A DNA stretch of 64,000 nucleotides from Zoogloea sp. (GTDB lineage: Bacteria; Pseudomonadota; Gammaproteobacteria; Burkholderiales; Rhodocyclaceae), in the NCBI RefSeq assembly GCF_028689785.1, contig NZ_JAQVCN010000004.1, positions 1 to 64,000 on the forward strand. The letters run 5' to 3'. This document shows, in pieces, positions 48,901-50,772 of the stretch. Below the pieces are notes generated by a model. The model was not told where the DNA came from and did no database searches. It saw nothing but the letters and a program-made list of their open reading frames with translations. Numbering within the stretch: the first letter of the stretch is position 1; each line of letters starts with the position of its first letter. The position numbers were made by a program, and so were the translations under genes.

Positions 48901-49544
48901 GCGACGCCCCCAATCTCGCCGATCTTCGCAAATCCTACGAGCGCGGCAGCCTCGACGTGGACGACGTGGCCACCGACCCGCTGGCCCAGTTTGGCAACTG
49001 GCTCAACGAAGCGCTGGCCCAGCAGCTCCCCGAGCCCAACGCCATGACCGTTGCCACCGTTGGTGCCGACGGCCGCCCGTCCACCCGGGTCGTGCTGATC
49101 AAGGGCTACGACACCCGCGGCATCGTCTGGTACACCAACTACGCCAGCCGCAAGGGCCACGAACTCGACGTCCACCCCTTCGCCGCCCTGCAGTTCCACT
49201 GGGTCGAGCTGGAGCGCGTGGTCCGCATCGAAGGCCGGGTGGAGAAAGTCTCGGCCGAGGAGTCCGACACCTATTTCGCCAGCCGCCCCCTCACCCACCG
49301 CATCGGCGCCTGGGCCTCCGAACAGAGCCAGCCCATCCCTGGCCGCGGCACCATCGTCGCCCGTGCGGCCGAGTACGGCCTGCGCTTCGGTCTCACCCCG
49401 CCCAGGCCCCCCCATTGGGGCGGCTACCGACTGGTCCCCGACTACTGGGAGTTCTGGCAAGGGCGCAGCTCACGGCTGCACGACCGCATCACCTACCGGC
49501 CCGCCGACGACGGCAGCTGGACGCGGCAGCGCCTGGCGCCCTGA
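48897..49544 (+). CDS. pdxH: Pyridoxamine 5'-phosphate oxidase
   Basis: 215 residues, normal for PdxH. The FMN/PLP-binding motifs are present: [34 protein letters not shown] [33 protein letters not shown], and the ending [14 protein letters not shown]. It converts pyridoxine/pyridoxamine phosphate to PLP. Translation is coupled to the c-di-GMP enzyme upstream (ATGA). The last 23 bases, including the stop, are repeated at 50727-50749. Confidence 0.95.
49522..49544 (+). repeat. Direct repeat, left copy (pdxH 3' end)
   Basis: 23 bases ending in the pdxH stop recur exactly and in the same direction at 50727-50749, bounding a 1.2-kb AT-richer segment. With CTGG in front the match extends to 27 of 28 positions with one indel. 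It resembles an integration-site duplication. Confidence 0.75.
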
Positions 49545-49756
49545 TTGATTCACAAATCATCACAAAGGCCCACTACCAATTTTTTTCGTTCTACCAACTA
49601 GCCACCCGGCAACAGAGGATAAGGACCCGAATTAGCGGCTCAGACCACAACTTACAGTCAATGTGAATAAGAACACGACAGCCAACTGATACTTGAGGGA
49701 CTAAAGTCAAGCGAATGGGAATATGCACCCCCTTTTCTTTCTACAGAGTGCATCCC

Positions 49757-50362
49757 ATGAAAAAAGCCCTCACAACAATCGCGCTTATGTCCGCATCGAT
49801 CACTGCACAAGCCTACGTTGTTGGATTCATTCCATCTGGAATTTCTGAAGTCACTCAATTCGAGAACATCAGCTGGGACATGACGTCCGACCAAACATAC
49901 CCGCATGGCACCATGTTCCCTTCGCTGCCAAGTTATTTCACGCTAACGGATCATGGTGACTTCCACTTCATGTCTGACGAAGCCAGTATGGTTGGTGCAA
50001 GCGGCCTCAATGTTTTCCCCAAAGGCACCAATCTGTCAGCAGGAACACTGATTAATCAAGACAGCGACTGGATCAATAACTTCGTCGCCTACACAGACAA
50101 CTTCGTCCCCGGTTGCGATATCGGCAGTACTTGTATCTATGGCGTTCGCTTTGAGCTAGGAGGTGCAGATCACTTCGGCTGGGTGCAGTTTCACGAAGGG
50201 ACTGACACTCAGTCGCTCCTTCGCTGGGCCTATGAAACCGAAGCTGGCGTGGGCATTCTTGCTGGTGACATGGGAACCGTCGCAATCCCTCCCACACCAG
50301 CACTTGCAGGGCTTGGTCTTGCAGCCATGGGCATTGCCCGCCGCCGCCGTAAGGCAAACTGA
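49757..50362 (+). CDS. PEP-CTERM-like exported protein
   Basis: 201 residues from ATG 49757. A signal peptide (MKKALTTIALMSASITAQA) precedes a beta-rich domain with two cysteines (PGCDIGSTCIYG, about 118-129). The C-terminus, IPPTPALAGLGLAAMGIARRRRKAN by position about 177-201, is a sorting signal like PEP-CTERM: Pro-rich motif, hydrophobic helix, Arg cluster. It would be processed by an exosortase and retained in or released from the envelope. Codon use and base composition are clearly more AT-rich than neighbours; it lies inside a segment bounded by a 23-bp direct repeat. Confidence 0.75.
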   Translation: MKKALTTIALMSASITAQAYVVGFIPSGISEVTQFENISWDMTSDQTYPHGTMFPSLPSYFTLTDHGDFHFMSDEASMVGASGLNVFPKGTNLSAGTLINQDSDWINNFVAYTDNFVPGCDIGSTCIYGVRFELGGADHFGWVQFHEGTDTQSLLRWAYETEAGVGILAGDMGTVAIPPTPALAGLGLAAMGIARRRRKAN

Positions 50363-50452
50363 GAGCGACGCCCCAACCTTGATTCATCCAAAGCATCGCA
50401 GGGTTACAACGAGGTCTCATTCAATAGCGCTTGAGGCTCCGTGGCGTCTCCC

Positions 50453-50537
50453 GTGGGGTCGAATTTATTCGACCACGGACTTTGGTCAGCGGCTCGCCGG
50501 TGATTGGAGTGAACAGGTCGAATAAATTCGACCCCAC
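50453..50537. repeat. REPIN-like 85-bp inverted-repeat element
   Basis: Arms at 50453-50474 and 50516-50537 are perfect 22-of-22 inverted copies around a 41-bp centre. Each arm starts GTGGGGTCGAATTT and itself contains the palindrome GGTCGAAT..ATTCGACC. This is the best-preserved of the three copies, so possibly the most recent. Confidence 0.85.
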
Positions 50538-50726
50538 GGCCCCTCCAGCCGCCGTCGGTGCATCCGGAGTTACTTTTCGCTTCGCCCGTCGGGTCACCCG
50601 GCCAAGGATGTGCAAACCTCCGCCACCATTGGGTTTGCGCCGGTTTCAGAGAGAGCAACCGAGGAAAGCAGGATAAATTTGCCGGACATGGCGGCACAAG
50701 GCTTCCCCGCAGCTGCGGCTCACTGG

Positions 50727-50749
50727 CGCGGCAGCGCCTGGCGCCCTGA
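50727..50749 (+). repeat. Direct repeat, right copy
   Basis: Exact copy of the last 23 bases of pdxH, same orientation, 1205 bases downstream. It is followed directly by a hairpin suited to end a transcript, as expected if this is the ancestral pdxH end displaced by an insertion. Confidence 0.75.
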
Positions 50750-50757
50750 CCCCGCCA

Positions 50758-50772
50758 CCGGCCGAGGGCCGG
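50758..50772 (+). terminator. Terminator-like hairpin after the right repeat
   Basis: CCGGCC-GAG-GGCCGG is a perfect 6-bp stem followed by CTTCGTT. It is eight bases after the duplicated pdxH stop copy and may be the displaced pdxH terminator. Confidence 0.5.

Follow-up and report, generated by a model that had tools for sequence, protein, structure and literature searches.

How the last bases of a gene came to stand on both sides of a block of foreign-looking DNA is the question raised by the pdxH locus of Zoogloea sp., on a contig (NZ_JAQVCN010000004.1) of which the first 64,000 nucleotides, here called the window, were analyzed. The 23 last bases of pdxH, at 49522-49544, have an exact copy in the same orientation at 50727-50749, and the original prediction, made from the sequence alone, saw in this an integration of the tyrosine-recombinase type at a gene 3' end. 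We propose instead that the insert between the two copies is a foreign-looking block whose right end is the scar of an ectopic short-homology recombination between the start of a tetR gene and the end of pdxH, and we put the probability of this reading at roughly 0.6. The features discussed are collected in Table 1.

An exact repeat of the pdxH end and its empty site

With up to three mismatches allowed, the 23-bp repeat matches the window twice, against 0.00 matches expected from 100 shuffles, which confirms the exact direct repeat that had been predicted. With up to two mismatches, it occurs twice in the whole genome and in none of 198 other genomes of the family, a sample that did not include the nearest relative, Zoogloea sp. 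MAG.494 (G010), which has one copy. This genome provides the empty site (locus L010): a single copy of the repeat is present there, and pdxH is followed by a hairpin and then by a cytochrome gene, i.e., the single-copy junction that the original prediction had proposed to look for in relatives. The pdxH proteins of the window and of G010 are 96% identical, and behind pdxH in G010 we find a cytochrome protein 84.6% identical to that of the window, encoded 122 bp after pdxH, and an FCSD flavoprotein with 89.6% identity. The hairpin-cytochrome junction beyond the right copy is as in G010, and the original prediction was right in this respect too. G010 may instead have lost the insert through recombination between two repeat copies.

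Compared with the empty site, the window contains about 1.2 kb of extra DNA, made up of 885 bp of alien composition, about 250 bp of a dispersed repeat and a 46-bp tail. Among the pdxH loci of 19 relatives, compared for up to 1.5 kb downstream (about 0.3 kb for two loci), none contains the PEP-CTERM-like gene of the insert, and one, that of G010, contains the cytochrome gene. The 176-kb contig is collinear with G010, mostly at 85-93% identity and with 35 gaps between aligned blocks, and an exact end repeat of at least 11 bases was found at a single one of these gaps, namely the pdxH gap (all 35 were tested, and 14 were also read by eye).

The right joint resembles the start of tetR

An unexpected match, to the start of the G010 tetR gene (35 bp, 89%), appeared when the genus was searched with 50540-50770. 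The tetR gene of the window lies about 8 kb downstream of the insert and is the ortholog of the G010 gene; a search of its own genome for tetR gives one match at E ≤ 1e-30. The tail between the dispersed repeat and the right copy consists of two tetR-like blocks, the first of which agrees with the window's own tetR at 19 of 22 bases, the 23 bp of the repeat being excluded here and for block 2. The second block, immediately left of the 14-bp core discussed below, agrees at 17 of 21 bases with tetR of G010 and at 16 of 21 with the window's own, against 9 of 21 with pdxH in the same ungapped comparison, and on this last count we rejected a decayed pdxH duplication as the source of the flank. The two blocks are 3 nt apart, compared with 36 in the window's own tetR. 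Random 28-mers equalled the score of block 1 in 1 of 200,000 trials for the own leader and in 41 of 200,000 for that of G010, and random 46-mers reached the score of the tail in 0 of 100,000 (own tetR) and 32 of 100,000 (G010), self matches excluded. The tetR leader is, moreover, the top non-self match to the tail in the contigs of both genomes (407 kb compared). Judged by these comparisons, a tetR origin of 50681-50726 is likely.

The joint itself falls in a stretch common to both genes. The first 14 bp of the right copy, CGCGGCAGCGCCTG, encode R-Q-R-L in both pdxH and tetR, and in G010 the two genes share exactly these 14 bp. Extended to the left, 50706-50740 agrees without gaps at 31 of 35 bases with tetR of G010 and at 28 of 35 with the window's own tetR, compared with 23 of 35 for pdxH, and the right junction translates as R-S-C-G-S-L-A-R-Q-R-L where tetR of G010 reads R-S-D-G-T-L-A-R-Q-R-L. 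To the right of the core, the sequence is that of pdxH and its downstream region. In a BLAST alignment the repeat is 28 bp long and contains one gap, and the added stretch is tetR-like, not pdxH-like; a crossover within the 14 bp would explain this one-base gap. Exact sharing of 14 bases was found in 6 of 3,000 random pairs of similar-length stretches in G010, so such recombination partners are uncommon, not rare. In addition, pdxH and tetR are somewhat alike beyond the 14 bp, a likeness that would aid recombination and that also blurs the comparison.

A proposed fusion of two versions of the locus

We suggest that two versions of the locus existed, one (A) with the order pdxH, PEP-CTERM gene, repeat, tetR, and the other (B) with the order pdxH, cytochrome/FCSD/Sox genes, tetR. 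Their fusion would have required two crossovers, one within a long stretch of homology and the other at the 14 bp, where the tetR leader would have been linked to the end of a second pdxH; this is the pattern of homology-facilitated illegitimate recombination (HFIR). The right copy would then be a hybrid of tetR and pdxH, and the left copy would belong, as the native pdxH end, to one of the two versions. Such a fusion would account for both ends of the insert at once, including the stop codon at which the left copy ends, as expected of a genuine pdxH end, and the duplicated pdxH end can be explained without an integrase. Both the crossover and its polarity are inferred here, as are the donor and the side of long homology. 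HFIR is described in PMC3240628 for three species with natural competence and, at low frequency, for E. coli conjugation. Those were laboratory events, whereas the window has a short homology of 14 bp, a decayed scar and a long-homology side that is not visible.

Several observations weigh against this reading. The match to tetR is short and interrupted, with a divergence of 17-19%, and 8 of 44,330 windows of other DNA (from five loci) score at least 35.6, with L137, L152 and L207 scoring above the 37.9 of the window's own tetR, which shows that such scores also arise by chance. The right copy has 0 of 23 bases changed, yet the tetR-like flank has several changes. Further, the identity of pdxH to G010 shows no break that would mark a donor tract, which would imply a close donor, a crossover near the pdxH end or a later arrival of the sulfur cluster, and the predicted order of pdxH, PEP-CTERM gene and tetR was found in no genome, the PEP-CTERM-like protein P0002 having no match in 22 other Zoogloea genomes, several of them incomplete. 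A match in another genome (G009:C370, E 5.3e-4), read in part and not identified, was taken as chance.

A recombination joint of this type is ordinary in kind and instructive in detail. What is usually taken for the footprint of integration, the 3' end of a gene repeated in direct orientation, can be the hybrid joint of two genes that share codons, and, if the proposed origin is true, the flanks of such repeats should be examined for mosaic structure before the DNA between them is named an island. Among the papers listed by searches of the literature on Zoogloea, PEP-CTERM, pdxH integration and illegitimate recombination, none concerned this locus, the one pdxH match being on a MITE of Porphyromonas (PMC4596501).

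Alternative explanations for the insert

The same 14 bp could also have acted within one chromosome, in that a tandem duplication would arise by unequal crossover if the end of pdxH paired with the start of tetR; the PEP-CTERM gene and the repeat would later have taken the place of the first copy of the interval, lost by deletion. The two genes are on the same strand and 5-15 kb apart, and a duplication of this kind would create a joint identical in appearance to the right copy; this scheme requires, however, a second event ending exactly at the pdxH stop, and 49530-50429 has no BLAST match at E ≤ 1 in the rest of the window and no trace of a first cytochrome-Sox copy, so that we regard it as possible and rather doubtful. 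Islands and cis-mobilizable elements (CIMEs) integrate at gene 3' ends by tyrosine recombinases, and the locus resembles them in that a direct repeat of a gene 3' end, stop codon included, bounds foreign-looking DNA and in that a clean, single-copy empty site exists. A small non-autonomous cassette whose attachment (att) site has the 23 bp as its core, integrated by a recombinase supplied in trans, would produce just such an exact, att-like repeat, and the repeat, taken alone, can fairly be read as integration at a gene end. The locus differs from the known elements in three respects. The insert, to which the search for integrases was confined, contains no integrase-like gene, as the original prediction had noted. 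The pdxH end is not reused in relatives: none of 80 named relatives, in which 83 to 9,997 bases were examined per locus, has another pdxH end downstream on the same strand, the best agreement being 17 of 24 bases (19 of 24 at one locus on the opposite strand; the pdxH end of L103 was placed one codon early, and its 24-mer is therefore shifted), and viral contigs contain no exact copy of a 20-base part of the core. Finally, the tetR-like flank is expected of a recombination joint, not of an att site, and points to recombination between two genes. On this evidence, we do not consider the claim of tyrosine-recombinase integration supported, and judge the cassette unlikely. Less likely again is a new kind of tiny cassette without an integrase, moved in trans with site-specific entry at gene 3' ends through a 23-bp att core, with a surface-protein gene as its cargo and the palindrome as its mobility signal.

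Transposition with an unusually long target duplication of 23 bp, for example by a palindromic repeat that carried the gene along, would fit a duplicated target surrounding a block with a repeat element, and is to our minds quite improbable. Of nine inverted pairs, none connects one end of the insert with the other; three other insertions on the contig that contain the palindrome lack a target duplication relative to G010; and neither end of the insert was found at another site of its own genome, in which, among the 40 of 123 candidates that were scored, the internal palindromic repeat alone recurs. The genome also has no match to a Y1_Tnp/RAYT transposase, and on these grounds we rejected RAYT-driven mobility of the palindrome. 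The last explanation to be weighed, and the one in which we place the least belief, is an assembly chimera of two strains in a metagenome. The genome is a draft of 128 contigs and the suspected joint falls at a short repeat; against this, 14-23 bp would be short for an assembly join, and the tetR remnant is decayed, with a deletion and substitutions, unlike a join of two current strains.

Table 1. Features of the pdxH-tetR region discussed in the text (positions in the window; G010 is Zoogloea sp. MAG.494).
Feature	Positions	Strand	Remarks
pdxH (pyridoxamine 5'-phosphate oxidase), intact	48897-49544	+	TIGR00558, 257.7 bits (cut-off 180)
Left copy of 23-bp repeat, native pdxH 3' end with stop	49522-49544	+	Identical bases in G010 pdxH
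Low-G+C segment, 885 bp	49545-50429		50.7% G+C; no similar DNA in the loci compared
PEP-CTERM-like gene P0002, 201 aa	49757-50362	+	Full-length relative L232, 39% identical; GC3 54.2%
Dispersed palindromic repeat	50430-50679		Composite of overlapping stretches of copies
Stem-loop, 89 bp, two perfect 24-nt arms	50451-50539		Fold -61.9 kcal/mol, z -9.5
Putative tetR leader/start remnant	50681-50726	+	Block 1, 50681-50702; block 2, 50706-50726; own tetR region, 58387-58465
Proposed crossover zone, 14 bp common to pdxH end and tetR start	50727-50740	+	Exact in pdxH and tetR of G010; 12/14 in own tetR
Rest of right copy, pdxH-derived, with stop	50741-50749	+	Runs into native pdxH downstream region as in G010
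Hairpin in native region behind pdxH	50750-50785	+	Present behind pdxH in L010
Cytochrome c gene, first of downstream sulfur-oxidation cluster	50863-51240	+	PF00034, 22.4 bits (cut-off 21.3)
tetR gene, CecR-like, presumed relative of right-joint partner	58411-59118	+	PF00440, PF09209

Composition and gene content of the insert

The insert had been described as a low-G+C cassette, and its composition bears this out, 300-bp windows outside it (46000-54000) having 63-75% G+C. BLAST of 49530-50429 against the compared loci and the rest of the window returned no rows at E ≤ 1, whereas the right-hand query returned 133. P0002 is the sole plausible gene in the insert, and the G+C content at its third codon positions (GC3) contrasts with the 86-90% of three neighbours (90% in pdxH).

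The description of P0002 as PEP-CTERM-like stands by homology. Among 368 other genomes of the class, 6 gave matches, the best of which (L232, E 1.6e-27) ends in a canonical PEP-CTERM tail (TIGR02595, 22.6 against a cut-off of 16), while 398 other genomes of the order gave one weak match. Its own C-terminal sorting domain, by contrast, scores below the curated cut-offs (PF07589, 13.3 bits against 20.7; TIGR02595, 12.2 against 16). Read by eye, the protein shares with exosortase substrates of the PEP-CTERM type a signal peptide-like start, a C-terminal hydrophobic stretch and an arginine tail, and its genome encodes an exosortase (PF09721); it differs from them in that its tail, PPTP..ARRRRKAN, has the motif PPTP in place of PEP. 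Phages, plasmids and viral contigs gave no match to P0002, and a scan of GTDB contigs gave 68 pattern matches and 0 confirmed relatives. A single-sequence structure prediction (mean pLDDT 31) was not used. P0002 is a surface-protein-like gene of alien composition that is present in one Zoogloea lineage. In Z. resiniphila, PEP-CTERM proteins are reported to be necessary for floc formation (PMC9012009).

The dispersed palindromic repeat

The palindromic element that had been noted between the two copies is confirmed as an 89-bp stem-loop, and it belongs to a repeat present in at least 45 distinct places of its own genome, including the copy in the insert. This count derives from 70 match rows, since a palindrome matches on both strands, and from the scoring of 40 out of 123 candidates. 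Four copies begin at 50430, and 21 of 37 matches in L057-L085 end at 50667-50679; the full 250 bp is covered by no copy that we saw. The right part of the repeat, about 160 bp long, has 29 matches in another Zoogloea genome, G022. The copies are scattered across contigs and are not arrayed with genes. REP/BIME-type elements are dispersed palindromes with dozens of stem-loop copies per genome; the element in the window is alike in this respect and differs in that its own genome has no match to the RAYT-type Y1 transposase, a family with matches in 9 of the 23 Zoogloea genomes searched. Between 49400 and 51000, Rfam gave two matches only, both on the palindrome and far under the gathering score (E 0.87-0.88).

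Members of this palindrome family, which is of the type GGGGTCGAATTTATTCGACC, also occur in the window at 28666-28756 and in L039-L053. Elsewhere on the contig, two composite insertions relative to G010, of 565 and 826 bp (G000:C38:108583-109147 and 116768-117593, L172), have pieces of the palindrome at their bounds and further inverted modules inside, with no target duplication. A second short palindrome, GGGCGACTGAAGTCGCCCCTAC, forms an inverted pair within an indel relative to G010 (G000:C38:97030-97250, L171).

The downstream side and the variable pdxH-tetR interval

The hairpin behind the right copy had been called terminator-like. A hairpin is indeed present there, as it is in G010, but in the window it is no more stable than shuffled sequences (z -0.06, compared with -1.99 in G010), and a terminator scan did not list it. 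Beyond it, the sulfur-oxidation cluster at 50863-55405 encodes the cytochrome c, two FCSD-like flavoproteins, a Sulf_transp (PF04143) transporter and SoxY. This cluster stands directly behind pdxH in the window and in G010; at the same place, G022 has a catalase-peroxidase-like gene (PF00141) and a run of others. The distance between pdxH and tetR, which are on the same strand, is 5 kb in G010, 9 kb in the window and in G022, and 15 kb in G005, and, as far as these sequences indicate, the pdxH-tetR interval is variable in Zoogloea. For example, a block at 55754-58333, encoding an LTXXQ/metal-resistance protein, an AraC-type regulator and a PEBP protein, is mostly present in G022, its left part is found in the G005 stretch, and G010 has 47 bp in its place. 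G010 also has an extra 1209 bp of its own right behind a gene end (G010:C185:158353-159561), in the size class of the window insert.
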